Shown here one piece after another: positions 2,524 through 61,275 of a stretch of DNA of 64,000 bases. Under the pieces are notes generated by a model. It worked only from the letters and a program-made list of their open reading frames with translations, made no database searches and was not told the DNA's origin. Location of the stretch: positions 1-64,000 of the forward strand of contig CANEXF010000015.1 of assembly GCA_947443645.1 (NCBI GenBank). The letters run 5' to 3'. How positions within the stretch are numbered: the stretch's first letter is position 1; every line of letters begins with the position of its first letter. This DNA comes from Comamonadaceae bacterium (lineage in GTDB: Bacteria > Pseudomonadota > Gammaproteobacteria > Burkholderiales > Burkholderiaceae_C). Made by a program: the position numbers and the translations under genes.

Positions 2524-4093
2524 GGGATGGACCCTCTTTTTGTGGGTAGTTCAGAACATTGAGCTGGTCTTCGAGCTTGGCAGCCGCCTCGCCGGAGGTC
2601 TGGTCACCCGTTGGTTTGTGCCGCGCAAGGTAAAACAGCACCGAGATATAGGCCACGATCAGCGCCACGTAGAGCGTCAGATACAGCGCCAGCGTGAGCG
2701 CAATCTGCGGAGCAGTGACTTTGGACGCCGCATCAGCAGCCGTCAGGATGCCGGACACCAGCCAGGGCTGACGCCCCACCTCGGTCACATACCAGCCGGC
2801 AATCAAGGCCACCCAACCGGCAAATGTCATGGCCACCAGCACCCGCGCATGCCAGACGGTGAGGTCTGGGTCAGAGGTCAGGCCCGCCGACAGGCCGCCC
2901 TTAGGCGGGCCAGCCCCCTCGGGGGGCAGTGAACCACGCGAAGCGGGGAACGTGGGGGCAATCGAACGCAGCGAAGGGCCGCCCCGAGCAAGTTCAGCCC
3001 CCTCGGGGGTCAACGAACCACGCGCAGCGGGGAGCGTGGGGGCTTTTTTTCTCCAGGGTGCCAGCTGCCAAGCGGTCAGCCAGCTCACGGCCAGCATCAG
3101 CAAGCCCATGCCGACCATGATGCGAAAGCCCCAGAACACAGGTGCCACCGGCGGGTGTTTGCCCTCAAAGTCGTTGAGTCCCTTGACCTCGCCATCGAGA
3201 TGATGGGTCAGGTAGAGCGAGGCGAGCTTTGGAATGGCGATCTCGTAGCGGTTTTCTCTTGCCTTCTCGTCAGGTAGCGCAAACAGCACCGCCGGCACGC
3301 CTTTTTGCGTCTGCCAGATGCCTTCCATGGCCGCCAGCTTGGCCGGCTGGTAGGCCAACGTGTTCAGGCCATGCAGGTCACCGGCGATGATTTGCAGCGG
3401 GATCAGGACGGCGGCGAGGTAGACACCGGTTTTCAGTCCGGCCATGACCTCGGCGCTGCGGTCGCTGCGCAACCAGCGGTAGGCAGAAATACCGGCGACC
3501 AAAAAAGCAACGGTCAGACCCGACGCCATCATCATGTGCGTGAAACGGTAGGGGAAAGACGGGTTGAAGATCACCTGCAACCAGCTCGTCACATGTGCTT
3601 TGCCGTCAACCATCACAAAACCGGCCGGCGTATGCATCCAGGAGTTGAGCGCCAGAATCCAGAAGGCCGACAAGGTCGTGCCACCGGCCACCAGCAAGGT
3701 TGCGGTTGTGTGCATGCGCTCACTGACACGCTGACGGCCGAACAGCATCACGCCCAGCATGGTCGCCTCCAGGAAGAAAGCGGTCAGTACTTCATAGGCC
3801 AGCAGCGGCCCGGCGATATTGCCGACCTTTTCCATATAGCCCGGCCAGTTGGTGCCGAACTGAAAGCTCATGGTGATGCCGCTGACCACGCCCATCGCAA
3901 AGGTCAGCGCGAAAATCTTGACCCAGAACTGGTAGGCATCCATCCAGTGCTGCTGACCGGTCTTGACAAAGCGCAGCTTGAAAAACAGCAAGACCCAGCC
4001 CAGCGAGATGCTGATGGTCGGAAACAAAATATGAAACGTCATATTGGCGGCGAACTGAATTCGCGCCAGTAGCAATGCGTCTAGTCCGTCCAT
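2516..4093 (-). CDS. cydA: Cytochrome bd-type quinol oxidase subunit I, short Q-loop, with repeat-derived insert
   Basis: A 525-aa CydA-family protein carrying the heme ligands and quinol site. The segment GDLHGLNTLAYQPAKLAAME and the later TEVGRQPW are family signatures. The Q-loop after it is short, as in the cyanide-insensitive (CioA) subtype. An AGGGG ribosome binding site precedes the ATG. Residues about 344-409, between two membrane segments, are an Arg/Gly/Pro-rich insert. It contains two copies of a similar peptide (APTLPAARGSLTPEGA and APTFPASRGSLPPEGA), encoded by two tandem family-A repeats. Because Q-loop and insert lie on successive loops, the insert should be cytoplasmic. Confidence 0.95.
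   Translation of the reverse strand: MDGLDALLLARIQFAANMTFHILFPTISISLGWVLLFFKLRFVKTGQQHWMDAYQFWVKIFALTFAMGVVSGITMSFQFGTNWPGYMEKVGNIAGPLLAYEVLTAFFLEATMLGVMLFGRQRVSERMHTTATLLVAGGTTLSAFWILALNSWMHTPAGFVMVDGKAHVTSWLQVIFNPSFPYRFTHMMMASGLTVAFLVAGISAYRWLRSDRSAEVMAGLKTGVYLAAVLIPLQIIAGDLHGLNTLAYQPAKLAAMEGIWQTQKGVPAVLFALPDEKARENRYEIAIPKLASLYLTHHLDGEVKGLNDFEGKHPPVAPVFWGFRIMVGMGLLMLAVSWLTAWQLAPWRKKAPTLPAARGSLTPEGAELARGGPSLRSIAPTFPASRGSLPPEGAGPPKGGLSAGLTSDPDLTVWHARVLVAMTFAGWVALIAGWYVTEVGRQPWLVSGILTAADAASKVTAPQIALTLALYLTLYVALIVAYISVLFYLARHKPTGDQTSGEAAAKLEDQLNVLNYPQKEGPSHA
2910..3043 (+). repeat. Two tandem family-A palindromic repeats inside cydA
   Basis: Copy 1 (about 2910-2959) and copy 2 (about 2995-3043) each run from CAGCCCCCTCGGGGG to CGTGGGGGC with closely similar interiors (GAACCACGCG..AGCGGGG). 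They match an intergenic element at 30452-30539. They lie antisense to cydA, and both are read through without a stop. Confidence 0.85.
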
Positions 4094-4363
4094 GCTCAGC
4101 CCCTGTTGTTATTTGAAAAATCTGTTGTGGATTCATCGCCTGCGGCGGGCGCGCTGGCTGTTGTTGCCGCCATGGTGTTCGATGCGACGCGGCCTGTCAA
4201 ACCAGCCACCACCCTGCCTGTGCGCCAAAGTCCATTTTTGCGCGCCAGCAAGCCAGCCATGCGGGGCGCAGAGCGGCCCGACGCGGCGTATAGTGCCGCA
4301 TCGGCAAGCCATACTCGCTATCAATTAAATAGCAGCTCGCGACCGTCCCACATGCACAAACAA
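4094..4363. other. Intergenic stretch upstream of cydA; family-B-like repeat, no confident gene
   Basis: No convincing gene is seen between cydA and the metF fragment. A 54-codon minus-strand frame (4260 to 4097) ends 2 bp before the cydA ATG. It has no membrane segment and no family signature, so I do not call it. A family-B-like element (GCTAT/ATAGC hairpin at 4317-4333, followed by AGCTCGCG) is present. The cydA promoter probably lies here, but no clear -35/-10 pair stood out. Confidence 0.5.
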
Positions 4364-4654
4364 CAGATTCGATGCCCAAAATTAGCGGGGATAGGCGCCA
4401 GGGCGACTACAGATCAAGGCGCTGGCAGATTTCCAGCGTGGGTGCGCTCTGGTTCATGCTGTAGAAATGCAGCCCCGGCACGCCGCCGTTGCGCAACTGG
4501 TCACACAAGTCGGTGATCACATCCAGACCAAAGCGCTTGATGGACGCGGTGTCGTCGCCAAAGCCCTGCAGGCGCAAGCGGATCCAGCGCGGAATTTCAG
4601 CGCCGCAGGCGTCGGAAAAGCGCATCAACTGGGTGGAGTTAGTGATGGGCATGA
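4364..4654. repeat. Direct repeat, copy 1 (metF 3' end plus downstream flank)
   Basis: This stretch repeats 13380-13670 in the same orientation with an exact offset of 9016 bp. The first roughly 140 bp (4364-4501, which includes 43 bp beyond the metF stop) is identical. Scattered substitutions accumulate from 4503 until similarity ends near 4654. It marks the left edge of the catabolic block. Confidence 0.95.
4407..4654 (-). pseudogene. metF 3' fragment (C-terminal ~82 codons duplicated)
   Basis: In the minus frame ending at the TAG at 4407 this encodes a near-identical copy of the MetF C-terminus (RFSDACGAEIPRWIRLRL, then LRNGGVPGLHFYSMNQSAPT), differing from the full gene in a few residues (for example KRFG for KSFG). 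It lacks the first 190 or so residues, including the TIM-barrel N-terminus, so it cannot be an active reductase. Upstream of position 4654 the frame runs on into the unrelated doxX 3' end. The fragment is a by-product of the duplication that bounds the block. Confidence 0.93.
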
Positions 4655-5082
4655 GCCGCTGTTGATGCAATAGCGGGCTCAGTCTTTCGGCGTAGCCAAT
4701 GGTGCGGTTGCGATTTAGCCGTTGCATAAAACAACAGGAAACCACCTGCCATGGCTGCGTTTTTCAGGAAGTTCAGAAGTTGGCCATTAAATTGCGGCGG
4801 TTCCGCAGCCCAGAACGCATGGGCAATGAAGGCAGAAACCATCGTGAAAAAGGCGAGCGCAATCGCGACGTACCGAGTCTGCCAGCCGATGACAAGCGCA
4901 ATACCACCCACAATTTCAAAAGCGATCGTCAAGGCCAGCAACAGCTCCGGCAAGGGAATGCCCAGCTTAGTGAAGTAGCCGACCGACGCGCCCCATGCCA
5001 GCAGCTTCCGGATGCCGGCCACTATGAAGATGAGCGCCATAAGGGCGCGTGCGGCAACGACTATTTTTTGTTCCTGAATCAT
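4639..5082 (-). CDS. DoxX-family membrane protein, C-terminus fused to the repeat junction
   Basis: A 147-aa protein with four hydrophobic segments of the DoxX family (RALMALIFIVAGIRKLL, PLPELLLALTIAFEIVGGIALV, YVAIALAFFTMVSAFIAHAFW, LKNAAMAGGFLLFYA). The family is small inner-membrane proteins, some tied to quinol or thiol redox chemistry; the exact role is unknown. A GGAGA site precedes the ATG. The last few residues (about AHAHH) and the TAA stop lie inside the duplicated metF sequence, so the natural 3' end has been replaced or trimmed. It is the last gene of the catabolic operon. Confidence 0.85.
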   Translation of the reverse strand: MIQEQKIVVAARALMALIFIVAGIRKLLAWGASVGYFTKLGIPLPELLLALTIAFEIVGGIALVIGWQTRYVAIALAFFTMVSAFIAHAFWAAEPPQFNGQLLNFLKNAAMAGGFLLFYATAKSQPHHWLRRKTEPAIASTAAHAHH

Positions 5083-5116
5083 GATTTGTCTCCAGTTAGT
5101 TGTTTCAAATGGAAAG

Positions 5117-5875
5117 CTATGCGCTCAAAATGGCGCCATACCCCGGCGTCCCAGCCTTCAGCCCTAGCAAGTCCAGCATGTTGCGCGTGGTGCAGGCAGA
5201 GGTCGAGGTGACAGGAATGCCGAGCGTGTCCTGCGCGATCTGCAGCGCCGGGATCGACTGCATCTGCACGCAGGCCGACAGCACCACCACATCGACATTG
5301 GCTGTATTGAGTTTTTTGACATCGTCAAGCAGGCGCATCGGGTCGCGGCGGCCGACTTCTAGGTTGTCGGGAATCTCGAAGCAGATGCGGTCCACCACTT
5401 CGATGCCTTCGCTTTCGATGTAAGCCACCACCTTGTCGGTCAGCGGTTTTATGTAGGGCGCCATCAAGGAAATCTTTTTGGCGCCCAGCTTTTGAAGGCC
5501 GTGAATCAGCGCGCCGGCGGAGGTCATGACCTTGGCATCGGAGCCGTTCTCGGTCGCGATGCGTTTGAAATCCGCCTCGACCTGGCGGTGGTAGCCCAGG
5601 CCCTGCGCCATGATGGCGACCAGGCAGGCGGTGCTCATCACATCGACCCGCGCGTCGGCGAGTTCTGCCGCACAGCGCAGGCCCTCCTTGTTCATGTTGG
5701 CGAGCTCTTCCGGCGTGACCTTGTGCATGCGCATGCGGCTGGAGTGGAAGGTGAAGCGCTCGGGGTGCAGCGCTTCGCGCGCCCGCAACATCGCCGGGAT
5801 TTCAGTCTCCATCGTGGTGTTGGAGCTGGGCACGATCTGGCCGATGCGGTAAAGCCGGGATGGCATGAAGGGCAT
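5117..5875 (-). CDS. Maleate isomerase (maleate cis-trans isomerase, Asp/Glu racemase superfamily)
   Basis: A 252-aa protein whose N-terminus, YRIGQIVPSSNTTMETEIPA, is the hallmark of maleate cis-trans isomerases (NicE/MaiA). These convert maleate to fumarate without cofactor, using two cysteines. Candidate catalytic residues are the Cys of STACLVA (about residue 87) and of SACVQMQS (about residue 208). The ATG at 5875 was chosen; an upstream TTG at 5899 is in frame but less likely. As the terminal enzyme of the operon it implies that the upstream pathway yields maleate, which becomes the TCA intermediate fumarate. Confidence 0.9.
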   Translation of the reverse strand: MPFMPSRLYRIGQIVPSSNTTMETEIPAMLRAREALHPERFTFHSSRMRMHKVTPEELANMNKEGLRCAAELADARVDVMSTACLVAIMAQGLGYHRQVEADFKRIATENGSDAKVMTSAGALIHGLQKLGAKKISLMAPYIKPLTDKVVAYIESEGIEVVDRICFEIPDNLEVGRRDPMRLLDDVKKLNTANVDVVVLSACVQMQSIPALQIAQDTLGIPVTSTSACTTRNMLDLLGLKAGTPGYGAILSA

Positions 5876-5901
5876 GGTGTGACCTGTGGTGAATGTCAAA
5901 A

Positions 5902-8060: not shown

Positions 8061-8539
8061 GCGGAAGCCTCCAAACCCAACAAACTGTCTGTCTGGCTTT
8101 CGTTCTGGTACTTTTCCAGCGCCGCACGAAATGCCGCAGGGATTTCAATCGAACGCCGCTCGTCACGTGCCACACACACCGGTGTCAGGGTGGCCACAAA
8201 AATCACATCGCCTTGCGGCGTGCGCGCGGTGATGTCGAGCACATAGGTGCGGCTGTGGATTTCGGCCACCGCGACCGTCATGTCAAAGAAATCGTCAGGC
8301 CGCAGCGACAGGCGAAAGTCAAAAGACAGCGCGCGGCTCGGTGTGCCGAAACCCTGCTCGTGTTTGGCTCGCTGCGGCGTAGTGTTGAACAGTGAGCCGT
8401 AGAAAAGTTCGGCGGCAGAGATCACGTATTCAGAGAAGGTCGGCGTATACACCACACCGGCAGGGTCGCAGTCGCCCCACTTGACGCGGCGGCGAATCAC
8501 CAGCGGACGATCACTGACGATGTATTCCGTCGCGGTCAT
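8057..8539 (-). CDS. Acyl-CoA thioesterase, 4-hydroxybenzoyl-CoA thioesterase (4HBT) family
   Basis: A 160-aa hotdog-fold protein with VKWGDCDPAGVVYTPTFSEYV near the N-terminus; the Asp of DPAG is the catalytic residue of 4HBT-type thioesterases. The start ATG at 8539 overlaps the ligase stop by 4 bp (ATGA); a longer in-frame extension is a shadow of the ligase gene. It is expected to release CoA from the hydroxylated aryl-CoA made by the monooxygenase, which follows it with another 4-bp overlap. Confidence 0.88.
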   Translation of the reverse strand: MTATEYIVSDRPLVIRRRVKWGDCDPAGVVYTPTFSEYVISAAELFYGSLFNTTPQRAKHEQGFGTPSRALSFDFRLSLRPDDFFDMTVAVAEIHSRTYVLDITARTPQGDVIFVATLTPVCVARDERRSIEIPAAFRAALEKYQNESQTDSLLGLEASA

Positions 8540-10212: not shown

Positions 10213-10232
10213 GTCTTTACTCCTGCTCATTT

Positions 10233-18365: not shown

Positions 18366-21300
18366 TCAGACCCGCTCCAGCACGCTGCGCAAGGCGTTGC
18401 CGGTGTGGGTACCGAGCTTGACCACAGCCTCGGGCGGCGCGGACGCCACGACCCGGCCGCCGGCATTGCCGCCGTCGGGACCAAGGTCAATCACCCAGTC
18501 GGCTTCGGCGATCACGTCGAGGTCATGCTCGATCACCACCACGCTGTGGCCGCCATTGACCAGTCTGTGCAGCACACTGATGAGCTTTTCGACGTCCGCC
18601 ATGTGCAGGCCGACCGTGGGCTCGTCCAGCACATAAAGCGTGTGCGGCGCCTTCTGGCCGCGCCGGGTGATGTCGTCGCGCACTTTTGAAAGCTCGGTCA
18701 CCAGCTTGATGCGCTGGGCTTCGCCGCCAGACAAGGTCGGCGAGGGCTGGCCCAGCGTGAGGTAGCCCAGCCCGACATCCTTGAGCAATTGCAAGGGATG
18801 ACCGATGCTGGGCATGGACGCAAAGAACTCGACAGCTTCGTCGACTTCCATTTTCAGCACATCACCAATGCTTTTGCCGCGCCAGGTCACGGCCAGCGTC
18901 TCAGGATTGAAACGTGCGCCGTGACAGGTTTCGCAAAGCACTTTGACATCCGGCAGGAAGCTCATCTCTATGGTGCGCACGCCCGCGCCTTCGCAGGTCG
19001 GGCAACGGCCGTCGCCGGTGTTGAAGGAAAAGCGCCCGGCCGCATAACCGCGCGCCCTGGCTTCCAGCGTGTCGGCAAAGAGTTTGCGTATGGTGTCCCA
19101 AAAGCCGATGTAGGTGGCCGGGCAGGAACGCGGCGTCTTGCCAATCGGCGTCTGATCGACCTCCAGCACCCTGTCGACCACGCGGTAGCCCGCAACGCGT
19201 TCGCAACCGATCCAGTCCGGCTGCTTGCCCCCCTCGTCGGCGTCGCGCCCGGCCTTGGTGGAGCGCTGCAGCACGGCGGCCTGAACATTGGCAAAAAGCA
19301 CGTCCCTCGCCAAGGTGGACTTGCCCGAGCCGGATACCCCGGTCACCGCCACCAGCCGGTACAGCGGCACAGTGATGGACACGTCCTTGAGGTTGTGCAG
19401 GTCAGCGCCCACCACCTCCAGCCAGGAGGTGAACTTGCTGGCCTCGGCTGGCGCCGCATTGTGCAGCGCGCTGGCGCTGGCAGCTGCGGCTTTGAGCGCC
19501 GCGGCTTTCTGAGCGGCTTGTTTGGCCTTGCTGAGGGGTTTGGCGAGCGCGGAGCCCTCACCCCCGCCCGCTCCCGGCGGGAGAGGGAGTGAACGCCCTG
19601 AATCGCTCCCTCGCCCCTGCGGGGAGAGGGCTGGGGTGAGGGGCAGCAGCGTCTCGCGGCGCATGTTCAGCGGATGAATCAGCGGATGCGCAAGGTACTG
19701 GCCCGTGAGCGACTCCGGCACCGCAGACAGCTGCGCGGCCGTGCCCTGGGCGACCAGCCGGCCACCGCGCTTGCCAGCCCCGGGTCCGATGTCGATGATG
19801 TTGTCGGCGCGGCGTATCGTGTCTTCGTCGTGCTCGACCACCACCAACGTGTTGCCGCGGTCGCTGAGCTTGCCCAGGGCGCGCAGCAAGATCTGGTTGT
19901 CGCGCGGATGCAATCCTATGGTGGGCTCGTCCAGCACGTAGCAAACGCCCTGCAGGTTGGAGCCCAGTTGCGCTGCAAGTCGTATGCGCTGCGCCTCACC
20001 GCCCGACAGCGTGGGCGCGCCACGGTCCAGCGTGAGGTAGCCCAGGCCTACGTCTTCCAGAAACTCAAGGCGGCTTTTGATCTCGGGAATCAAATCCCTG
20101 GCAATACCGGCTTCACGGCCGACCAGCGCGAGCTTTTCTACCCAGGCGCGTATGTCGGTCACGGAAAGCTGCGCGATCTCGGCAATACCGACGCCGGCAA
20201 ACTTCACGGCGCGGGCTTGCCGGTTCAGGCGCGTGCCCTGGCAACCCGGGCAAACCGTGTCCAGCACATCGTCGACCTCGGGCTCGGCAAAGCTCTGCTC
20301 GCGGCCCTTGTTGTCGGCGTCCTGCACCGAATCGTCAAACACCTTGCGCTGCTCCTTGCTGAGCTTGACGCCCGTGCCCACGCAGTCGCTGCACCAGCCG
20401 TGCTTGCTGTTGTAGCTGAACAGGCGTGGGTCCAGTTCGGCATAAGAGGTGGCGCACACCGGGCAGGCACGCTTGGTTGAAAACGCTTCCAGCCGGCCTA
20501 TGCCGGCCGTCGAACTGCCGGCGAGCATGGCGCCCTTCAGGCCATCGAGCGGCGCCAGCACATGCACCACGCCCTTGCCGTGTTGCAGCGCGGTGGCCAG
20601 AAGCTGTCGCAGCTCGGCTTCGTTTTCAGGCTTGACCAGCATGTCACCGAGCGGCAGTTCGACGGTGTGCTCCTTGAAGCGGTCTATGCGCGGGAAATTC
20701 GTGGTCGGTAAAAATTCACCATCTATGCGCAGATGCGTGTAGCCGCGCGGCCTGGCCCAGTCAGCCAGTTCGGTGTAGACACCCTTGCGAGCGATCACAA
20801 GCGGCGCGAGCAGGCCGATATGCTGACCGCGGTAGGTTTTGAGCAACTGCGCCGCAATGCTTTCGGCACTCTGCGGCATGACCGCAGCATCGTCCTTGGT
20901 GCAATGCTGAATACCGAGCTTGACGTAAAGCAGGCGCAGAAAATGCCAGACCTCCGTGGTGGTGCCCACGGTTGATTTTCGGCCGCCACGCGAGAGCCGC
21001 TGCTCGATCGCCACCGTCGGCGGGATGCCGTAGACCGCATCAACTTCAGGCCGGCCCGCCGGCTGCACAATGCTGCGCGCATAGGCGTTGAGCGACTCCA
21101 GATAGCGTCGCTGGCCCTCGTTGAACAGGATGTCAAAAGCCAGCGTTGATTTACCAGAGCCCGAGACACCGGTCACCACGTTGAACTTGCCGCGTGGAAT
21201 ATCCACCGACAGGCTCTTGAGGTTGTTCTCCTTGGCATTGACGATCTGTATCAGGTTGGAAAACGCCGGCCGCGGTTTCCAGGCTTTGGGCTGCACTTCC

Positions 21301-24300
21301 TGCACGCCGTGCACCTGTCCCATGGCCGCTTCGTACTCGCGCAACGCCCTGGCTGTATGCGATGTCGGATGCTCGCGCACGTCTTCTGGCGAACCCTGGG
21401 CGACCAGCAGACCGCCACCCTCGCCGCCCTCGGGGCCGAGGTCAATCAGCCAGTCGGCAGAGCGGATCACATCCAGGTTGTGCTCGATGATGATCAGTGA
21501 ATGGCCGGCCTCAAGCAACCTGCGCAGCGCGCGCATGAGCTTGGCAATGTCGTCGAAATGCAGGCCGGTGGTGGGCTCGTCAAACAAAAACAGCGTGCCC
21601 CGCCCAGGCAGCTTGAGCGCCAGCGCCTGCTTGCTTGCGCTTTTGGTCTTGCCCGCGGACTTACTGGCCTCGGCCAGGTAGCCGGCGAGCTTGAGGCGCT
21701 GCGCCTCACCACCCGACAGCGTGGGCACGGGCTGGCCCAGCTTCACGTATTCCAGCCCCACGTCAACAATGGGCTGCAAGGCGCGGACCACGTCGCGGTC
21801 CTGCGCAAACAGCTGCACCGCTTCGCTGACCGTGAGGTCCAGCACATCGGCCACGCTGAGCAGCCGGGGCGTGGTTTGGCCTATGGCCTGGCGTTCAATC
21901 GTGACTTCGAGAATCTCGGCGCGGTAGCGTTTGCCGTCACAGTCGGGGCAACGCAGATAGACGTCGCTCAGGAACTGCATTTCAACATGCTCAAAGCCCG
22001 AGCCACCACAGGTCGGGCAGCGCCCGTCGCCATTGTTGAAACTGAATTTGGTGGCGGTATAGCTGCGCTCGCGCGCCAGCGGTGACTGCGCAAACAGATC
22101 CCGCACGGCGTCCCAGGCGCCGACATAACTGGCCGGATTCGAACGCGCGGTCTTGCCTATGGGCGACTGGTCAACAAAAACCACATCGGTCAGGTGGTCC
22201 GCACCCATCAGCCGGTCGTGCAGACCCGGCGTTTCCGTGGCCTTGCCAAACTGGCGCAGCAGCGCAGGCGCCAGAATATCCTGCATCAGGGTCGACTTGC
22301 CGGAGCCGCTCACACCCGTCACGCAGACCAGCCGCTGCAGCGGAAAGTCAACGGTCAGGTTCTGCAGGTTGTGGTCACGCGCGCCTTCGAGAATCAAGCG
22401 CGGCGTGTTGTCGGTCACGGGCCGCTTGAACCCCATGCCCACTTGCTTGCGTGAGCCCAGGTAGGCGCCGGTCAGCGTGTCGGCATGCTTGAGGTCTTCG
22501 GGCGTGCCGTCAAACACGATCTGGCCGCCCTTTTCTCCGGGGCCAGGGCCCATGTCTATCATGCGGTCAGCGGCCAGCATCACGGCCGGGTCATGTTCGA
22601 CCACGACCAGCGTGTTGCCCGCATCGCGCAGACGGTGCATGGCCTGGGTGATGCGGTTCATGTCGCGTGGGTGCAGGCCAATCGAGGGCTCGTCGAGCAC
22701 AAACAAGGTGTTGACCAGCGATGTTCCCAGCGCCGTCGTGAGGTTGATGCGCTGCACTTCACCGCCAGACAAGGTGCGGCTTTGCCGGTCCAGCGTGAGA
22801 TAGCCAATGCCCACGTCACAAAGGTATTTCAGGCGCGTCTGGATTTCTTCAAACAGCGACTTCAGGGCCTTTTGCTCGGCATCGTCGCCGAGCGCAGCCA
22901 ATGAAAGGCTGGCAGAAAACTTCTGCAAACGATCGATAGGCAGGCGCATCAGATCATGCACGCACAGACCAGGCATGGCTTCGAGCTGGGCACGGCTCCA
23001 CTGCACGCCGACCGGCATGAAGCGCTCGGCAGGCGGCAGGACCGCGTCAGCGGCCTGCTTGGTGCCCAGGCGCCAGAGCAGCGACTCCAGCTTCAGGCGC
23101 GCGCTGCCGCAGGTCTCGCAAGGCGTGTAGCTGCGGTACTTGGACAGCAGCACACGAATATGCATTTTGTAAGACTTGCTCTCAAGGTACTCAAAAAAGC
23201 GCTTGATGCCAAACCAGTGCTGGCTCCATTTGCCATTCCAGGCCGGTGAGCCGTTGATGACCCAGGCTTGCTGCTCTGGCGTCAGTTTGTACCAGGGCGT
23301 GTCGCGCGGAATGCCCGCCGCCTCGGCGTGGCGCATCAAATCGTCCTGCGCCTCCTTCCAGGCTGGCGTTTGCATGACCTTGACGGCGCCGGAGCGCAGC
23401 GTGAGCTTGTCATTGGGAATCACCAGGCCAAGGTCAACGCCGATCACGCGGCCAAAGCCCTTGCACTTGGTGCAGGCGCCCATGGCCGAGTTGAAGGAAA
23501 ACAGCGAAGGCGTTGGCTCCGCGTAACGCGTGTCGCTGTCCGGGCAATGCAGGCCGCTTGAAAAGCGCCACAAAAGCTCGTTAGTCGCCTCGCTTTTCAC
23601 GGCGGCGCTGCCCCCCGAGGGGGCTGGCTCTGCCTGGGGCGACCCGGCGCTATCGCTGCCGCTCACCGCCAGAACATAAACATTGAGTCGCCCGCCGCCG
23701 CGCTTGAGCGCGGTTTCAATGGCTTCAATCGCGCGCGCTTTTTCAATCGTCTGAATGCGAAAGCGATCGGCCACCACGTCCAGAAGCTGGTGCGGCCCGG
23801 CCGGCGTGGCCACCTCGCGCTGCGCGTGCACGCGCGTAAATCCGCTCGCCGAAAGCCATTGCTCGAGTTGCTCAGGGCTGGTGTTGCCCGGCAGCTCCAC
23901 CGGAAACGTCAGAACCAGACGTGCCCCGGCGAAATATTGAGCGCCCTCCATGGCGGCGGTACGCGTCATCAGCTGCGCATAAATCGACTCCGGCGTGTCA
24001 TGGCTGACGGATTGCGCGGTCTGCTTGTCAAACAACTCGGCCGATCGCGCGTACAAGAGCTTCAGATGGTCATTTAGCTCGGTCATGGTGCCCACGGTGG
24101 AGCGGGAACTGCGCACCGGATTGGTCTGGTCAATCGCAATCGCTGGTGGCACGCCTTCAACCTTGTCAACCGCGGGCTTGTCCATACGGTCCAGAAACTG
24201 CCGGGCGTAGGCCGAGAAGGTCTCCACATACCGTCGCTGCCCCTCGGCAAACAAGGTGTCAAACACCAGCGATGACTTGCCCGAACCGCTCGGCCCCGTC

Positions 24301-24392
24301 ACCACCGTCATTTCCCCGGTACGGATATCCAGGTCAAGGTTTTTGAGGTTGTGCTGACGCGCACCGCGGATGCGGATGATTCCCTGGGGCAT
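18366..24392 (-). CDS. uvrA: Double-length excinuclease ABC subunit A (tandem UvrA fusion)
   Basis: A ~2008-aa protein, about twice the usual UvrA (about 940 aa). It has four ABC modules instead of two. Walker A motifs are at about residues 40 (GPSGSGKSS), 695 (GVSGSGKST), 1077 and 1688. Signature motifs TLSGGE are at about 542, 893, 1463 and 1888, each with a following [16 protein letters not shown] or [16 protein letters not shown] Walker B. CxxC zinc-binding pairs are present in both halves (for example CPTCGG and CPDCDG). UvrA is the DNA-damage sensor of nucleotide excision repair and normally dimerises; here a dimer may be encoded in one chain. Start 24392 ([20 protein letters not shown]) is the family start. 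Repeat-derived segments lie at about residues 244-265 and 1583-1612. Confidence 0.93.
19555..19643. repeat. Family-D palindromic repeat inside uvrA
   Basis: CCCTCACCCCCGCCCGCTC at one end and GGGCTGGGGTGAGGGG at the other, with two GGGAGAGGG/CCCTC-type stems between, form the common palindromic repeat that encodes [15 protein letters not shown] peptides when translated. Here it lies in the linker of the second UvrA half (about residues 1583-1612), next to a long Ala/Lys-rich stretch. Confidence 0.85.
23598..23660 (-). repeat. Family-A palindromic repeat inside uvrA
   Basis: On the minus strand this runs AGCGCCGGGTCGCCCC, then AGCCCCCTCGGGGGGCAGCG. It encodes about [16 protein letters not shown] in a loop of the first UvrA half (about residues 244-265). 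It shares frame and core with the copies in mccA and glyQ. Confidence 0.8.
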
Positions 24393-24509
24393 GAGTGAGG
24401 ACTTTCCTGAAGAAGTCAAACATTCTAGACAGCGGCCCTGCGCTTGAGTAACTTAGGGTTAAAGCCCTCTCGTCCGCTGTTTCAAGCCGGTTGTCATACC
24501 CACCCCCGT

Positions 24510-30451: not shown

Positions 30452-30539
30452 GGGGCCGCGGATCTGGCTTTGCCAGTCCGCAGGCGCAGCGGCCCCCTCG
30501 GGGGGCAGGGAGTTACGCGGAGCGAACGACCGTGGGGGC
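30452..30539 (+). repeat. Family-A palindromic repeat (intergenic, full length)
   Basis: This ~88-bp copy lies between mvaB and ghrA. It starts GGGGCCGCGGATCTGGCTTT, has the core GGCCCCCTCGGGGGGCAG, and ends CGTGGGGGC. The mccA copy (32639-32724) aligns along its whole length, which defines the element ends. Confidence 0.9.
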
Positions 30540-30543: not shown

Positions 30544-31473
30544 TCAGTATCCCTTTTTCGGGTCAACCACACCGGCAAGGCGGTCCGACGTTGCGCCGTG
30601 TTGCATGGCCAGGATTTTCGCCGCGATCTGGGCCACGCTTTCCTCGCGCATGGTGCGCGCCGAAGTATGCGGCGTGATCGTGATTTTCGGATGCTGCCAG
30701 AACGCATGCCCTGCAGGCAAGGGTTCTTGCCGAAAAACATCCAGACTGGCCCCTTCAAGATGGCCACTTTCAAGCAGCGCCAACAAGTCATCATCGACCA
30801 GATGGCCGCCGCGCGCCACGTTGATCAGATAAGCCCCGGGCAGCAAGCGGGACAAATTCTCGCGCCGCAAGAGGCCTTCTGTTTCTGGTGTCAACGGCAA
30901 CAGGCACACCAGGATTCGGCTGGCGGCAAGAAAGTCGTCCAGACCATCCTGACCGTGAAAGCAGCGCACGCCGTCCAGCAGCTTCGCAGAACGGCTCCAG
31001 CCCGAGACCGAAAAATCAAACTGGGTCAGCGCCTTTGCCACGCGCTGCCCCAGCACGCCCAGACCCATCACGCCCACCGGGTAGTCCTGGCGCAGGCGCG
31101 GCTTGCGGTAAGACCACAACCCCTTGGCCGCATCGGCCTGGTAAGCGTCGAAGGCCCGGAAATGCCGGATCACCGCATGACAGACAAATTCGGCCATCTG
31201 CACCGACATGCCCGCATCGTCGAGCCGGACAAGGGGAACACCGGCAGGCAGGCGCAGCTTCAGAAGCGCATCGACACCCGCGCCTATGTTGAAAATGCCT
31301 TTGAGTCCAGTCTGCTCGTCAAAAAAAGCCTGGGGCGGCGCCCAGACCACGGCGTAGTCAGCTGGATGTTCACCGGGCGACCACAAGGCGATCTCCGCGC
31401 CCGGCAAGGCCGCGCGCAGGCCGTCCAGCCAGGGCTGGGCTTTGGTATCGGTACAGCAAAAAACAACACGCAT
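30544..31473 (-). CDS. ghrA: Glyoxylate/hydroxypyruvate reductase A-like D-2-hydroxyacid dehydrogenase
   Basis: A 309-aa NAD(P)-dependent reductase of the D-isomer 2-hydroxyacid family, GhrA subgroup. Visible features are IFNIGAGVDALL, the dinucleotide-binding VGVMGLGVLGQRVAKAL, and catalytic Arg (NVARGGHLVDD), Glu (FRQEPLP) and His (ITPHTSA). It reduces glyoxylate or hydroxypyruvate. Its place inside the leucine operon is unexplained. An in-frame ATG at 31488 is an alternative start. Confidence 0.9.
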   Translation of the reverse strand: MRVVFCCTDTKAQPWLDGLRAALPGAEIALWSPGEHPADYAVVWAPPQAFFDEQTGLKGIFNIGAGVDALLKLRLPAGVPLVRLDDAGMSVQMAEFVCHAVIRHFRAFDAYQADAAKGLWSYRKPRLRQDYPVGVMGLGVLGQRVAKALTQFDFSVSGWSRSAKLLDGVRCFHGQDGLDDFLAASRILVCLLPLTPETEGLLRRENLSRLLPGAYLINVARGGHLVDDDLLALLESGHLEGASLDVFRQEPLPAGHAFWQHPKITITPHTSARTMREESVAQIAAKILAMQHGATSDRLAGVVDPKKGY

Positions 31474-31506
31474 CGCTTGGCAATCCATTCAGGTCTCAGA
31501 TCAGAA

Positions 31507-33654
31507 TCACAGGCCGATCTTGAGCAGCTCGGCGCCTTCAGCAACCTGGTCTCCGGTCGCATACAGCAGTTCCAGCACCACGCCGTCGGCAGGCGCTGCA
31601 ATCGTATGCTCCATTTTCATGGCTTCCATCACGGCCAGCGCCTGGCCCTTGCTGACCTTGTCGCCCACAGCAACACGGAAAGACACCACCTTTCCAGGCA
31701 TGGGAGCCGTGAGCCGCCCGCCCTCGGCCGGCCCGGCCCCCGCATGCGCGAGCAAATCGATGGCTGTGATCTGCGTGGCGCCGCGCGCCGAAAAAACATG
31801 GTCCACCTCGCCCTGGCGAAACACCGTCACCGTCAGTCGCTGGCCCGCAAACGCCACATCAATGCCCTGGGCAGCTCTGGAAAAAACCAGCGCGCCGCTC
31901 GCACCTGGCAGGCTCAAATGCAGTGTGCCGTCGTGCAGATAGCTGAGCTGGGCTTTCGCCGGCTCGCCGTGAAATTCGAATTCAAAAGGCCTGACGGTCA
32001 GGCCATGCGAGCGCCAGCCATCGCGGCGACTGAACGGATCAAGGGTCTCCTGGTCTTTTTCGTCCAGCACAATCTGTGCAATCGCACTCGCAGCGGCCAG
32101 GGCCAGGCCCAGCGGCTCCTGGTTAAACAGCGCGGCCTGTTCGCGCGGGATCAAGGCCGTGTCCAGATCGCCCGCGGCAAACGACGCGCTGCGCACCACA
32201 TAGCGCAGGAACTGCACATTGGTGTGCAGCCCGACGATGCGGGTTTGCGCCAGCGCCTCATCAAGCCGGGCCAGAGCTTGCTCGCGGGTCTGGCCATGCA
32301 CGATAAGCTTGGCCACCATGGAATCGTAATAAGGCGAAATGGTGTCGGCCTCACGCACGCCATCGTCGACACGCACCACACCGGTTTCAAAGCTCACGCA
32401 GGCCGGCTTTTGATACAGCTGCAGCGTGCCAGTGGCGGGCAGAAAGTTGTTGTCCGGGTTCTCGGCACAAATACGGGCTTCGATCGCATGGCCATGGATG
32501 CGCAACTGGTCTTGCGCCAGCGGCAGTTTTTCACCCGAGGCCACCAGCAGTTGCCACTCGACCAGATCCAGGCCTGTGATGGCTTCGGTCACCGGATGCT
32601 CAACCTGCAGACGCGTGTTCATCTCCATGAAGTAGAAGGCCCCCACGCTTGCCACTTCGTGTGCTGCGCTGCCCCCCGAGGGGGCGCTGCGCCTGCGGCC
32701 CGGCAAAGCCGGTTCCGCGGCCCCGGCTGGAAAAGAGGACTCACCCAATCCTGCCACTTCGCCATTCCGTTCGTCCTGAGCGTGTCTAAGGACGGCATCG
32801 GGGTTTTTGAGGGCTTGCTCGACGATGAATTCCACCGTACCAGCGCCCACATAGTTGACGGCGCGCGCAGCCGCGACCGCAGCTTGGCCCATCTCCTGGC
32901 GCATGGCTTCAGTCATGCCGGGTGCGGGCGCTTCTTCCAGCACTTTCTGGTGGCGACGCTGCACGGAGCAGTCGCGCTCGAACAGGTAAACATAGTTGCC
33001 GTACAGGTCACCAAAGATCTGGATTTCGATATGGCGCGGGCGCTGCGCATACTTTTCGACCAGCACGGCGTCGTCGCCAAAGCTGTTGATGGCCTCGCGC
33101 TTGCAGGATTGGAGCGCGGCGTCGAAGTCTTCGGCTTTGTCGACCGCGCGCATGCCCTTGCCGCCACCGCCGGCGCTGGCCTTGATCAGCACCGGGTAGC
33201 CGATACGGTCGGCCTCGCGCTTGAGCAATGCCGGCGACTGGTCGCTGCCATGGTAGCCGGGGACCAGCGGCACGCCGGCTTTTTCCATCAACTGCTTGGA
33301 CTCGGCTTTCAGGCCCATGGCCTTGATGGCTGCGGGCGACGGCCCGATGAACACCAGGCCGGCATCGGCACAGGCCTGCGCGAACTCCTCGTTTTCACTC
33401 AAGAAACCATAGCCCGGGTGAATCGCCTCGGCCCCGGTGGCCTTGGCCGCCGCGATGATTTTGTCCCAGCGCAAATAGCTGTCTTTGGGCGCACTGCCGC
33501 CCAGATGCACGGCTTCATCACAAACCGCCACATGCTTGGCGCCGGCATCAGCATCGGAATAAACCGCCACCGTCTTGATGGCCATGCGCCTGGCGGTTGC
33601 CGCCACCCTGCAGGCTATCTCTCCTCTGTTCGCAATCAGTATTTTTTTAAACAT
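31507..33654 (-). CDS. liuD: 3-methylcrotonyl-CoA carboxylase, biotin-containing alpha subunit, with a ~52-residue repeat insert
   Basis: A 715-aa acyl-CoA carboxylase subunit. The biotin carboxylase domain (FKKILIANRGEIACRV, ATP-grasp KASAGGGGKGMR, FMEMNTRLQVEHPVTE) fills about residues 1-500, and a biotinyl domain with the AMKMEH lysine lies near the C-terminus. With LiuB it carboxylates 3-methylcrotonyl-CoA in leucine breakdown. Between GTVEFIVEQ and FYFMEMNTR, where relatives have a short hairpin turn, lies an insert (about residues 285-338). It is encoded by a family-C remnant (VLRHAQDERN) followed by a family-A repeat ([11 protein letters not shown]). The insert is next to the metal-binding Glu/Asn of the active site. 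Confidence 0.95.
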   Translation of the reverse strand: MFKKILIANRGEIACRVAATARRMAIKTVAVYSDADAGAKHVAVCDEAVHLGGSAPKDSYLRWDKIIAAAKATGAEAIHPGYGFLSENEEFAQACADAGLVFIGPSPAAIKAMGLKAESKQLMEKAGVPLVPGYHGSDQSPALLKREADRIGYPVLIKASAGGGGKGMRAVDKAEDFDAALQSCKREAINSFGDDAVLVEKYAQRPRHIEIQIFGDLYGNYVYLFERDCSVQRRHQKVLEEAPAPGMTEAMRQEMGQAAVAAARAVNYVGAGTVEFIVEQALKNPDAVLRHAQDERNGEVAGLGESSFPAGAAEPALPGRRRSAPSGGSAAHEVASVGAFYFMEMNTRLQVEHPVTEAITGLDLVEWQLLVASGEKLPLAQDQLRIHGHAIEARICAENPDNNFLPATGTLQLYQKPACVSFETGVVRVDDGVREADTISPYYDSMVAKLIVHGQTREQALARLDEALAQTRIVGLHTNVQFLRYVVRSASFAAGDLDTALIPREQAALFNQEPLGLALAAASAIAQIVLDEKDQETLDPFSRRDGWRSHGLTVRPFEFEFHGEPAKAQLSYLHDGTLHLSLPGASGALVFSRAAQGIDVAFAGQRLTVTVFRQGEVDHVFSARGATQITAIDLLAHAGAGPAEGGRLTAPMPGKVVSFRVAVGDKVSKGQALAVMEAMKMEHTIAAPADGVVLELLYATGDQVAEGAELLKIGL
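32639..32724 (-). repeat. Family-A palindromic repeat inside mccA/liuD
   Basis: Read on the minus strand it is nearly colinear with the intergenic copy at 30452-30539: GGGGCCGCGGAACCGGCTTT, CAGGCGCAGCGCCCCCTCGG, ending AGCGTGGGGGC. It lies sense to the gene and codes for [20 protein letters not shown] and following residues. Confidence 0.9.
32767..32800. repeat. Family-C repeat remnant inside mccA/liuD
   Basis: The plus strand reads GCCATTCCGTTCGTCCTGAG, then CGTGTCTAAGGACGGC. This is a decayed copy of the REP-type element whose usual form is CCTGAGCTTGTCGAAGGACGG. In the gene's frame it gives VLRHAQDERN, a peptide typical of translated copies. Confidence 0.7.
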
Positions 33655-56643: not shown

Positions 56644-56649
56644 GTCAGT

Positions 56650-57420: not shown

Positions 57421-57460
57421 GGTGGTCTTCTCTTAGGTGAACTGGACTTGCGCATCACTC

Positions 57461-57512
57461 AGGCCTTTTGCGCATATCTGGCGGGCGCGAGCAGCTACTG
57501 TTTTTATAGTAC
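57461..57512 (-). repeat. Family-B short hairpin repeat supplying the gmhB stop codon
   Basis: On the minus strand GTACTATAAAAACAGTAGC is followed by TGCTCGCGCCCGCCAG, ATATGCGCAAAAGGCCT. The gmhB stop (TAA at 57506-57504) and its last codons fall in the first stem of this element. Confidence 0.75.
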
Positions 57513-58076
57513 AAAAGGCAGGGGCTGGGCACTGCGCGCAAGGATGTAGTCGGCAAAGGCCGACAGGTCCTGGTGCAGCACGGTGCCTGCAGGCAAGCCA
57601 TCGGGCCGGCCGCCAGCACGGTATTGCTCGGATTTTCCGGTCAGCACCAGGTGCGGCTCGCAACCAGCCGCAGCGCCGGCCTGCAAGTCGCGCAACGAGT
57701 CGCCGGCCGTCGGCACGCCTTTGAGCGCGACGCCAAAGCGCGCGCCTATCTGCTCGAACAGGCCCGGCAGGGGTTTGCGGCATTGGCACGCCTCCTCCGG
57801 GCTGTGCGGGCAATAAAACACCGCATCAATCCGGCCACCCAAGGCCGCCAGCATCTTGTGCATTTTGGCGTGCATGGCGTTGAGCGAGGCGACATCAAAC
57901 AGGCCGCGCCCCAGGCCAGACTGGTTGGACGCGATCACCACGTGCCAGCCCGCATGGTTTAGCCGTGCAATCGCCTCCAGCGCGCCGGGCAGCGGCATCC
58001 ACTCTTCCGGCGTTTTGACGAAATCGTCGCTGTCACTGTTGATGGTGCCGTCACGGTCGAGGATAACGAGCTTCAT
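57504..58076 (-). CDS. gmhB: D-glycero-beta-D-manno-heptose 1,7-bisphosphate 7-phosphatase
   Basis: A 190-aa HAD phosphatase of the histidinol-phosphatase/GmhB group: LVILDRDGTINSDSDDFVKT (Asp nucleophile and acid), VIASNQSGLGRGLF and the zinc loop CPHSPEEACQCRKPLPGL. It acts in ADP-heptose synthesis for LPS. Its stop codon lies in a family-B repeat, so the natural C-terminus may have been reset by a residue or a few. Confidence 0.92.
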   Translation of the reverse strand: MKLVILDRDGTINSDSDDFVKTPEEWMPLPGALEAIARLNHAGWHVVIASNQSGLGRGLFDVASLNAMHAKMHKMLAALGGRIDAVFYCPHSPEEACQCRKPLPGLFEQIGARFGVALKGVPTAGDSLRDLQAGAAAGCEPHLVLTGKSEQYRAGGRPDGLPAGTVLHQDLSAFADYILARSAQPLPFVL

Positions 58077-58153
58077 GGGAGCCTCCAGAGCGCAATAAGG
58101 CCAGCCCCGTCGGGGCGCCGCGAGGACACAAAACGCAGCACGTAAGTGCTCAT

Positions 58154-60289
58154 TTACGCGGCCAGCTTGGAAAGATCGGCCACGCGGTTCATGGCCACGT
58201 GCAGAGACTTCAGCAGCCCCTGCCGGTTCAGCCGCAAATCCATTTCTTCGGCATTGACCATCACGCCATCAAAGAATGCATCCACCGGCACCCGCAGCGC
58301 GGCCAAAGTTTGCAGTGAGGCGGTGTAGTCGCCGGCTTCAAACTGCGTTTGCGCTCGTGGCAACACCTGGTTCATGACTTCAAACAGGGCAATTTCAGCC
58401 GCTTCGCGCAGCAGCACCGGGCTGACATGGGCGTCCACCTCCTGCGCCTTCTTCAAGATATTGCCAATGCGCTTGTTGGCAGCGGCCAGAGCCGGCGCTT
58501 CAGGCAAGGCAGCGAAGACGCGCACGGCCAGCAGGCGCTTGGCCACATCGCCCAGACGCTGCGGCTGCAAGGTCAGCACGGCATCGACTTCCTGCGCGCT
58601 GTAGCCCTGCTCGCGCAGGGTACCAGCCAGGCGGTCATAGATGAAGTCGATCAAGACGCCACTGGCGTCCTGGATTTTGTCGCCAAAAGCCTGCGCGCCG
58701 GCATCCACCAGTGCGCGCAAATCCATGGAAAGATCGCGCTCGACCAACATGCGGGTCACACCCAGCGCATGGCGGCGCAGCGCAAACGGATCCTTGTCGC
58801 CCGTCGGCAGATTGCCAATGCCAAACATGCCGACCAGGGTCTCGAGCTTGTCCGCCAGCGCGACCACCACGCCCACATCACCACGCGGCAAGGTGTCGCC
58901 GGCAAAGCGCGGCTTGTAATGGTCTTCGATCGCATCGGCGACGTCGACGCTCAAGCCGTCGTTGAGCGCGTAGTAGCGCCCCATGGTGCCTTGCAGCTCG
59001 GGAAATTCACCCACCATGTCTGTGACCAGATCAGTCTTGGCCAGCTGCGCGGCCTGGTCGGCTTGCTCGGCCAGCGCAGCACCGCCGAGTTGCAGGCCAA
59101 TCGCCCGGGCAATTGCCCTAACCCGTTCAACGCGCTCACCCTGCGTGCCCAGCTTGTTGTGATAAACCACCTTGTCCAGCCCCGCCACGCGCGAAGCCAG
59201 CGTCTTTTTGCGGTCCTGGTCAAAGAAGAACTTGGCGTCGGCCAGGCGCGGACGCACCACACGCTCATTGCCGCCTATGACCGCGCTCGCATCACTGGGG
59301 CTGATGTTGCTGACGACCAGAAATTTGTTGCTCAGCTTGCCCTTGGCATCGAGCAGCGGAAAGTACTTCTGATTGGCCTTCATCGTGAGGATCAGGCACT
59401 CCTGCGGCACGTCAAGGAATTCTTTTTCGAACTCGCAGACCAGCACATTGGGACGCTCGACCAGCGCGGTGACCTCGTCAAGCAGGGCTTCGTCTTCAAT
59501 CGCCTTGACGCCGCCGCCGACCTTGCTGGCGGCTGCAGCGAGTTGCCTGGCGATCTCGGCCTTGCGCTCGGTAAAACTGGCGATCACGGCACCGTCTTTT
59601 TGCAAGCTTGCGGCGTAGCTGTCGGCGTCCTTGAACACCACGGGATCAAGCAAGGCCTCAAAGCGGTGACCGTGCGTGCTGTTGCCAGCCTTCAAACCCA
59701 GGGCATGCACGGGCACCAGGTCAGCGCCATGCAGCGCCACCAGGCCGTGCGCCGGACGCACAAAGCTCACGCTGCTCCAGCCGGGCAAGGCGCAGTCGGT
59801 CTCCAGCTGGTAGCTCATGACCTTGGGAATCGGCAACTTGGCGATGGCTTCGAGCAGGGCTTTTTGCAGGCCTTCGACCAGCGTGGCACCGGTCACGGTG
59901 CTGTCGTAGAACAGGGCTTCGGCCTTGCCGTCGGGCGCGCGCTTGAGACCGGCGACGGCGCTGGCGTCTGCGCCCAGCGCGGCCAGTCGTTTGAGCAGTG
60001 CCGGCGTCGCCTGGCCCGATGCATCCAGCCCCACGGCCACCGGCATGAGCTTTTGCGACACCGCTTTGTCAGCGGCCTGCGCGGACACTGCCGTGATGTG
60101 CGCGGCGAGTCGCCGCGGTGAGGCATAGGCCGTCAGCACGGCGTCGGCGCTGGCCAGACCCTGTGCCTTGAGTTGCTCAAGCAAGACGCCAGCAAAAGCG
60201 TCACCGAGTTTTTTCAGAACTTTGGGCGGCAGCTCTTCAACAAATAATTCAACCAGCAGGTTTTGGGTAGTCATGGTCATCGCGCTCAC
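58154..60289 (-). CDS. glyS: Glycine--tRNA ligase beta subunit
   Basis: A 711-aa beta subunit of the heterotetrameric glycyl-tRNA synthetase ([63 protein letters not shown], SDRxxR-like region, then the DALR-type C-terminal tRNA-binding part). A GTG start overlaps the glyQ stop by 4 bp (GTGA); ATGs at 60280 and 60274 are also in frame. Co-translated with glyQ. Confidence 0.96.
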
Positions 60290-61275
60290 GCTGCCTTCTT
60301 TGTCATCTGCTCAACCCATTCACGCGGTGCCATCGGGAAACCCAGGCGTTCGCGGCTTTCGTAGTAGCTCTGCGCGACGGCGCGCGCGAGGTTGCGGATG
60401 CGGCCAATATAGGCTGCGCGCTCGGTCACGCTGATGGCGCCGCGCGCGTCCAGCAAGTTGAAGCTGTGCGCAGCCTTGAGCACCTGCTCGTAGGCGGGTA
60501 AGGCCAGTTTTTCGGCGATCAGGTGCTTGGCCTGCTTTTCATGCGAGGTAAACGCGGTGAACAAAAAGTCAGCGTCGCTGTGCTCGAAGTTGTAGGTCGA
60601 CTGCTCGACCTCGTTTTGCTTGTAGACGTCGCCATAGAGGAGTTGGCCCCCACGCTTGCCCACTGCGTGTGGCTCACTGCCCCCCAAGGGGGCTGGGTCA
60701 GCTTGGGAGCGGCCCGGCGCTGACCCGCTGTCGGTCCACACGAGGTTGTAGACGTTGTCCACGCCCTGCAGGTACATGGCCAGGCGCTCCAGACCGTAGG
60801 TGATCTCGCCGGTGATGGGCTTGCAATCAATGCCGCCGACCTGCTGGAAGTAGGTGAACTGCGTGACTTCCATGCCATTGAGCCAGACCTCCCAGCCCAG
60901 ACCCCAGGCGCCCAGCGTCGGGTTTTCCCAGTCGTCTTCGACGAAACGGATGTCGTTTTGTTTCAGGTCAAAGCCCAGGGCTTCGAGCGAGCCCAGGTAG
61001 AGCTCCAGGATGTTGCTCGGTGCCGGCTTGAGCACCACCTGGTACTGGTAGTAGTGCTGCAGACGGTTTGGGTTCTCGCCATAGCGGCCGTCTTTTGGTC
61101 GGCGGCTGGGCTGCACGTAGGCGGCCTTCCAGGGCTCAGGGCCGAGCGCTCTTAAAAAAGTAGCAGTATGCGACGTCCCGGCACCGACCTCCATGTCATA
61201 AGGCTGCAACAGTGCGCAGCCCTGGTCAGCCCAGTAGGACTGCAGCTTCAAGATAATTTGCTGAAAGGTAAGCAT
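60286..61275 (-). CDS. glyQ: Glycine--tRNA ligase alpha subunit with a repeat-derived insert
   Basis: A 329-aa alpha subunit carrying the class II catalytic core: [71 protein letters not shown] and [20 protein letters not shown]. Typical GlyQ has about 300 residues. The excess is an insert at about residues 178-208 ([20 protein letters not shown] and following) between LVWTDSG and YGDVYKQ, coded by a family-A repeat in the sense direction. The core on both sides is intact, so the enzyme is probably functional. Confidence 0.96.
60646..60730 (-). repeat. Family-A palindromic repeat inside glyQ
   Basis: On the minus strand: AGCGCCGGGCCGCTCCCAAG, GACCCAGCCCCCTTGGGGGG, then CAGTGAGCCACACGCAGTGG and AAGCGTGGGGGC. 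The core is one mismatch from perfect. It is in sense orientation and reads in the same frame as the mccA and uvrA copies. Confidence 0.88.

Follow-up and report, generated by a model that had tools for sequence, protein, structure and literature searches.

Introduction

The Beta-proteobacterial repeat element (BRE) is a tandem repeat of about 75–91 bp reported from Bordetella, Polaromonas, Delftia, Acidovorax and Rhodoferax (Hot et al., 2011; PMC3110155); here and below, statements from the literature refer to the portions of the cited papers that were considered. Its copies are mostly intergenic, with some wholly inside coding sequences, and the loci in table 3 of that paper have only co-directional and convergent neighbours. 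At the authors' thresholds, the maximum was 29 copies (Polaromonas JS666), with 4 in R. ferrireducens, and the function of BRE was said to need study (PMC3110155). Rickettsia palindromic elements (RPEs) are short palindromic repeats found in frame in many genes (reviewed in PMC10969869). Repetitive extragenic palindromic (REP) sequences of the GTAG and CGTC types are downstream palindromes with alternative, complementary stem residues, and some of them lie in open reading frames (ORFs), uvrA included (PMC3733652); some E. coli REPs lie within 15 nt of stop codons (PMC12306157). The repeat described here was found in a 64,000-nt stretch of a Comamonadaceae bacterium (assembly GCA_947443645.1, contig CANEXF010000015.1, positions 1–64,000), hereafter the window. 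It is probably a non-autonomous, structured repeat of the Burkholderiales that behaves like a REP crossed with a Rickettsia palindromic element, survives at two kinds of site and is translated in its genic copies.

The unit is about 80–95 bp long. Its left hairpin is followed by a C5/G6 core and then by a small C(GNA)G hairpin, and the unit closes with GTGGGGGC. The core CCCCCTCGGGGGGC was counted in the 64-kb window and in the whole 3.2 Mb genome, with the reversed pattern as control. The genome contains the exact core 146 times and the reversed control not once, while the window holds seven matches with at most two mismatches against 0.98 expected by chance, a number reached in 0 of 100 shuffles. 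Exact cores lie at 2914 (+), 23610 (−), 30493 (+) and 32671 (−), and the cores at 2998 (+) and 60679 (−) are each one base off; the seventh match, at 58105, has two mismatches and, by eye, no surrounding element. A covariance model returned 151 genome matches with 150 of 1833 candidates fully scored, and the true copy number is therefore probably above 151. For the analysis of individual copies, 70 sequences (69 stretches and the window) gave 105 copies, of which 104 were kept after edge and duplicate rows had been dropped; the stretches surround 96 listed core copies outside the window, a subset of all 146.

An earlier sequence-only reading of the window had proposed six copies of a palindromic element with a shared core, inserted in frame in conserved genes. 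All six lie where it placed them and resemble each other well beyond chance, with the shared core exact in four and one base different in two. The single description it gave of the flanks merged two left-arm subtypes, its uvrA copy proved to be present in truncated form, lacking the GTGGGGGC end, and its two cydA copies, which are indeed inserted in that gene, had to be corrected to an antisense orientation. Its overall interpretation is partly supported; the docking at stop codons, the frame rule and the covarying stems described below had not been noticed there.

Position relative to stop codons

In the window, 4 nt separate the GGGGGC end of the intergenic element (type II; 30452–30539, + strand) from the stop codon of its neighbour at 30544–31488 (− strand; a gene predicted as an ORF with a codon-score call). 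The site of this element is filled in genome G004, carries a deletion form in G026 and is empty in G033. Among 85 arrays in the genome of origin, 29 touch the interior of a gene and 53 have both neighbours; these 53 comprise 36 that are antisense to two co-directional genes, 9 in convergent, 7 in sense and 1 in divergent context. Where the GGGGGC end faces the 3′-end of a gene, the array finishes −1 to 11 nt from the stop codon in 45 of 45 cases, taking the last G-run before the gene as the end of the array. Random placement in the same gaps gave a mean of 10.9 such arrays and a maximum of 20 in 20000 simulations, a null that is possibly too wide if undetected decayed units occupy part of the gaps. 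If the first GGGGGC behind the core is taken as the end instead, 33 of the 36 and 5 of the 9 remain docked, and the rest are at least 86 nt off, mostly with further units following. The opposite end is not docked: 19 copies have a stop codon on that side, and its distance from the core ranges from 48 to 386 nt. The sequences of two empty sites read as though the stop codon predates the insertion. A called start codon lies inside the unit in five of the seven sense arrays, which may represent N-terminal insertions.

Facing ends are similarly placed in other genomes. They lie 1–6 nt from a stop codon in 5 of 5 cases in stretches of G026, G033 and G004 (which include one array in (+,+) context), within 13 nt in 14 of 17 cases in a second species, G043, and within 12 nt in 7 of 8 cases in G144, which belongs to another genus. 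Gene calls support docking in G043 and G144 only in part.

Docking of this kind could in principle arise at the insertion step, if the element entered where translation ends, in one polarity, on a single strand left by the ribosome or an R-loop. This origin is considered quite improbable; if it held, stop codons would be the target, genic copies would be off-target entries surviving in two bland frames, and the repeat would follow a route of mobility coupled to translation termination.

In eight units from other families (L444, L446, L449, L453, L447, L448, L458 and L459), an ATG lies within a few nucleotides of the far stem arm, and in four of these eight a Shine-Dalgarno-like word lies in the stem arm. 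A unit with an ATG behind its far arm could span the distance from stop to start codon.

Reading frame of genic copies

About one-third of the copies are genic (35 of 104 by a codon-score test, 33 of 104 by a second gene caller), a count that the sequence-only reading had proposed making. In the genome of origin, all 17 sense copies are read in the frame that encodes APSGGS and all 16 antisense copies in the frame that encodes LPPEGA. On average 2.3 frames are open per copy, and uniform choice among open frames would give this result with log10 P of −11.4. The same rule is followed by 8 of 8 copies in G043 and by 4 of 4 in the stretches of G026, G033 and G004. In G144, a codon-score caller distributed 15 copies over five frame classes, and frames were judged there by Pfam because that caller looked unreliable in this genome. 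A Pfam scan of 20 ORFs, chosen from 46 rows (43 distinct) of long ORFs spanning an element, yielded six genes in which the element lies inside or between domains of one protein; five of the six obey the rule (MoeA, GCV_T, a methylmalonyl-CoA mutase/MeaB fusion, RecG and topoisomerase I).

The properties of the two used frames were compared in 70 intergenic copies. There, they are the frames most often free of stop codons (0.96 and 0.99), their net charge of 1.6 and 0.8 is below the 2.9 to 4.7 of the other frames, and within each orientation they encode the fewest C, W, F, Y, I and M residues. From these patterns we infer that the frame rule reflects selection on the translated peptide.

Insertion into conserved proteins

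The presence of the element in coding sequence was evaluated at the genic sites of the window. The gene glyQ (glycyl-tRNA synthetase alpha subunit; 60286–61275, − strand; PF02091, E 2.1e-145) carries a type Ia element in sense orientation at 60646–60730 (−), with the stem GGGTCAGC/GCTGACCC, which encodes approximately residues 184–211. The GlyQ proteins of most relatives align to about residues 1–183 and 212–329 of the window protein, leaving a net insert of 28 residues, or 84 bp. Among 30 glyQ loci, three have intact inserts (the window's own, G035 and G013), two have shortened remnants and 25 have none. The window GlyQ is 87% identical to that of several Comamonadaceae, with a Rhodoferax metagenome-assembled genome (MAG) first and Polaromonas and Variovorax equal to it, very near records possibly being excluded; Rhodoferax is accordingly a likely genus for the window. 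In an AlphaFold model of moderate overall confidence (mean pLDDT, the per-residue confidence score, 66), the insert lies in coil and includes the lowest-scoring block of the protein (pLDDT 33). The stem differs among the three species, from GGGTCAGC/GCTGACCC to GGGCCAGC/GCTGGCCC in one and GGGTCGG/CCGACCC, with an inner pair lost, in another; since both sides have changed and are still complementary, pairing has largely been kept inside coding sequence. At locus L081, on a contig labelled as a Desulfovibrionaceae MAG, a GlyQ that is 85% identical to that of the window has the apparent remains of a decayed element in the loop that holds the insert; the taxonomic label possibly reflects faulty binning.

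The liuD gene (methylcrotonyl-CoA carboxylase alpha subunit; 31507–33654, −; Biotin_carb and BT_MCC_alpha domains) contains a type II element in sense orientation at 32639–32724 (−). Of 30 liuD loci, 10 are filled, 18 empty and 2 unread. The subtypes that fill the loop differ; one locus has a perfect in-frame tandem pair, and another a tandem in which the two stems are unlike. At L163 (G034), the loop contains a 90 bp unit twice in identical tandem copies, probably through a recent in-frame duplication. Next to the type II element of the window, at 32789 (−), is a third repeat-like stretch, TTAGACACGCTCAGGACGAACGG, which presumably belongs to a repeat family; two different repeats may be stacked in one LiuD loop.

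The cydA gene (cytochrome bd oxidase subunit I; 2516–4093, −; PF01654, E 1.1e-162) carries two elements in tandem. The first (type Ia; 2881–2959, +) has the stem GGCCCGCC/GGCGGGCC, its core at 2914–2927 and its GTGGGGGC end at 2952–2959 (+); the second, 84 bp past it, is of type Ib (GAACGC..GCaaGTTC; 2964–3043, +). Among 30 cydA loci, the window's own included, 3 have an insert, 17 lack it and 10 are unread. The truncated copy in uvrA (23598–23660, −; core 23610–23623) is in sense orientation and is absent from the one orthologue examined (G033, L304); at another uvrA site, an 84 bp insert is present in G004, and G026 and G033 are empty. Comparison with orthologues bears out the in-frame insertion proposed in the sequence-only reading for glyQ, liuD and cydA, and comparison with a single orthologue does so for uvrA. 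The host ORF of the uvrA copy (18366–24419, −; UvrA interaction and ABC domains) is 2017 aa long and has two matches to the UvrA interaction domain; UvrA is usually about half that length. A linker of this UvrA holds, in frame at 19640 (−), another repeat-like stretch, which we take to be a repeat family.

Outside the window, a Pfam family was assigned to 23 of 26 host ORFs with an E-value of 1e-8 or lower, the domain not always spanning the insert. Hosts include methionyl-tRNA synthetase (MetG), CysN, DapC, GlnD, XdhA, FdhD, PEP carboxylase and two AcrB-type transporters.

Structure of the unit

The left hairpin consists of a hypervariable yet complementary stem around a constant loop. Sorting the 104 copies by pattern gave 74 of type I and 30 of type II. 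In type I, the stem has up to eight pairs with copy-specific letters (AATTTCCC, TTTTTCC, GTTCCGCC, GGGTCAGC and others) around the constant loop GCCGGGCCGCCCCAAG or one close to it. The left hairpin of type II reads GGGGCCGCGG-accggcTTTgccgg-CCGCAGGCGCAGCG. Tandem units run head to tail, adjacent pairs being mostly 81–84 bp apart. At L040:2501 and L052:2514, a palindrome of the GGGGTCAGAC type lies directly behind the core, as if a repeat had entered a repeat.

Alignments comprised 53 of the 74 type I copies (A2), with subsets of 28 (A4) and 26 (A5) rows that include two or three rows outside A2, and 29 of the 30 type II copies (A3). As rows were picked by eye for an intact left arm, the pairing percentages apply to intact copies. 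In these, pair counts against shuffles and slides support the helices: 95.8% of cells are paired in 28 type Ia rows (76.3% when shuffled), 96.9% in 26 type Ib rows (82.9%) and 92.3% in 29 type II rows (86.4%), and two-sided changes number 82 vs 26.7, 46 vs 15.4 and 32 vs 10.0, respectively. A further 21 distinct rows, drawn from seven other families as well as two genera of the family, have 97.9% of cells paired vs 70.8%, with 97 two-sided changes vs 27.9, in an alignment that was fitted to the covariance model and is biased in its favour. In these rows, two-sided changes and all four Watson-Crick pairs occur at seven of the eight positions of the stem.

Templated repair acting on near-palindromes, or conversion among the copies, could also maintain complementary stems, with no structural selection. 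The stem letters vary and stay complementary even in coding sequence, and identical stems recur at unrelated loci, as such a process would produce; the conserved loop letters and the GNA triloop require another cause, and this account is judged unlikely. The triloop is conserved: among the 104 copies, C(GNA)G closes 81 of 89 small hairpins that form a stem, compared with 386 of 6651 comparable hairpins in the same DNA. GNA loops on G-C stems form extraordinarily stable DNA mini-hairpins (PMC4686876).

A rather unlikely alternative is that the repeat is primarily an RNA element with a function between cistrons, where it would alter mRNA stability or translation behind the stop codon, a role suggested for E. 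coli REPs that lie no more than 15 nt from a stop codon; genic copies would then be strays. This alternative would account for the polarised docking of 45 of 45 arrays, the single divergent context among 53 arrays, the covarying stems and the ATG close to the far stem arm in 8 of 17 units from other genera and families, and E. coli REPs less than 16 nt from a stop codon lower translation (PMC12306157). It fits poorly with the retention of the C(GNA)G hairpin in 25 of 33 genic copies, within coding sequence, with a loop type known as a DNA motif and with weak RNA folding z-scores.

Spread and survival

Under the favoured interpretation of a non-autonomous repeat with two survival sites, copies would spread as folded single-stranded DNA handled by an enzyme, a route suggested by the conserved hairpin loop, which is of the DNA-specific ultra-stable type and occurs on one strand only. 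Two filters would then act after insertion. Copies would persist either immediately downstream of a stop codon, where they would be transcribed as a 3′ or intercistronic structure, or within a gene in a frame that codes for a near-neutral linker, and genic copies would be translated as part of the protein.

Several results weigh against this interpretation. No transposase or other mobilising enzyme was found for the element, and among 20 loci of a candidate transposase gene (3.3–3.4 kb each), none contained the core with up to two mismatches or a model match at E 0.01. One of the six Pfam-confirmed genes of G144, queA (QueA), uses another frame, and the sense frame in use encodes a less hydrophilic peptide than the other two (grand average of hydropathy −0.59 vs −1.10 and −1.25; 70 intergenic copies). 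Codon-score calls place nine arrays of G043 in the opposite, (+,+), context and one in divergent context, and in G144 there are seven divergent and six (+,+) arrays; these contrary contexts are suspected to be miscalled genes in GC-rich DNA. With respect to structure, further pair types are no more numerous than in shuffles in types Ib and II, and at one pair of type II, pairing is missing from 21 of the 29 rows. Folding energy hardly exceeds that of shuffles, with z from −1.77 to +0.65 for the six window copies and from −2.11 to +0.92 for four others, and DNA folding assigns the small hairpin no special stability; energy folding was set aside as too weak to serve as evidence for structure. 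Finally, the replichore bias in G043 is modest (35:21 vs 11:20 among the matches listed), is compatible with many explanations and was not used as proof.

The candidate transposase is a Y1_Tnp gene resembling the REP-associated tyrosine transposases (RAYTs). It is present in 60 of 61 genomes of the genus, that of origin included, mostly as one copy, and this near ubiquity is what favours a REP mobilised by a genus-wide RAYT. The 20 loci read (for example G000:C3:173808-174134, L260) mostly lie before a gltB-like start and are flanked by another palindrome, of the TAATTGGGGTCAGATTCCAATTA type; G003, G022 and G040, which have no exact core, have the gene too. GTAG occurs near unit ends in 7 of 104 copies, below the shuffled mean of 12.2, and CGTC in 16 of 104 (shuffled, 20.6). 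Because none of the 20 RAYT loci holds the element, the two are not linked; RAYT was rejected as mobiliser, and this origin is very unlikely. A classical miniature inverted-repeat transposable element (MITE) with terminal inverted repeats and target duplication would fit in size and copy number. There is no conserved terminal inverted repeat, the left end being the variable stem, and no target duplication at two empty sites to within 1 bp, and a MITE is barely plausible.

Distribution

A 16-base pattern of the element occurs in 58 of 61 genomes of the genus (that of origin included). In the family, 228 of 299 genomes have it; of 40 genomes from other families, 2 do. Covariance model matches were obtained in 14 of 150 genomes of the order, again including that of origin, representing eight families; a model-based search of the genome and its relatives had been suggested in the sequence-only reading. 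A blastn search detected it in 2 of 72,556 plasmid records and in none of 50,697 phage records, and a tblastn search of plasmids with a 28-residue element peptide gave no match. The pattern is present in 79 stretches of IMG/VR contigs. Carriage by plasmids or phages was rejected on the blastn result.

Relation to described repeat families

In the window, no Rfam family matched the element at gathering score; the only match was a S-adenosylhomocysteine (SAH) riboswitch (RF01057; 17072–17147, −; 59.1 bits). The covered parts of the R. ferrireducens genome paper (PMC2755013) make no mention of such repeats, and the portions considered of published texts containing the core words are not concerned with them. 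Bordetella has intergenic stem-loop families such as Bor-1, of 93 and 117 bp (PMC2267715), which by description may or may not be the same as this element. The d(GCGAAGC) DNA mini-hairpin shares the C(GNA)G loop and is a physical motif, not a repeat family (PMC4686876).

The element resembles REPs and bacterial interspersed mosaic elements (BIMEs) as a high-copy palindrome downstream of genes with complementary stem variation and some intragenic copies. REPs, however, are 20–40 bp long with a GTAG or CGTC tag, the GTAG type often near a RAYT gene, and head-to-tail dimers are absent or rare among them, whereas the tandems here run head to tail. Membership in the GTAG and CGTC superfamilies was rejected, given units of 80–95 bp with several hairpins and tags at or below the shuffled level, as was the association of a RAYT gene with the same repeat on its flanks (0 of 20 loci). 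MITE membership was likewise rejected on terminal inverted repeats and target duplication.

By its description, the element is very probably BRE. It shares with BRE its size, GC richness, tandems separated by zero to few nucleotides, chromosomal location, Comamonadaceae hosts, a mostly intergenic position with some copies within coding sequences, and a scarcity of divergent contexts, with 1 among 53 arrays here and none in the BRE table; its 81–84 bp spacing falls within the 75–91 bp of the BRE tandem unit, and it occurs in Comamonadaceae and other Betaproteobacteria. The view that no protein-invading element of this type had been described is therefore probably overtaken by Hot et al. (2011; PMC3110155). 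Structure, stop-codon docking, the frame rule and comparisons of orthologues are absent from the BRE description in the portions considered (PMC3110155, section 14), and the 146 exact cores counted here compare with at most 29 BRE copies per genome in that paper.

Docking and the single-frame rule replace vague ideas of selfish repeats with counts that can be made in every Burkholderiales genome, and they help to tell a preference at insertion from selection. The stem, which varies strongly and is still complementary, offers a natural test of how hairpin pairing is maintained, coding sequence included. The enzymes affected include GlyQ, MetG, CysN, DapC, GlnD and PEP carboxylase, with RecG and topoisomerase I in another genus, and illustrate how short, seemingly mobile DNA can be accepted as additional protein sequence.

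In this behaviour the element has its nearest parallels in the RPEs and in intragenic REPs (PMC3733652), and in its docking in the E. coli REPs close to stop codons (PMC12306157). Like the RPEs, it is short, palindromic and present in many copies, about one-third of them genic and in frame, with in-frame insertion in conserved genes whose orthologues mostly lack it. The likeness to RPEs drawn in the sequence-only reading holds as a working likeness, as does its description of a Comamonadaceae repeat with a core and length of its own. The hosts differ and RPEs are about 150 bp long; a likeness of behaviour is meant, and membership is not claimed. Stop-codon docking is unmentioned in the portions considered of the RPE review (PMC10969869). 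Repeats that invade proteins are best known from Rickettsia, and the same outcome is common here in another bacterial group, which is free-living.

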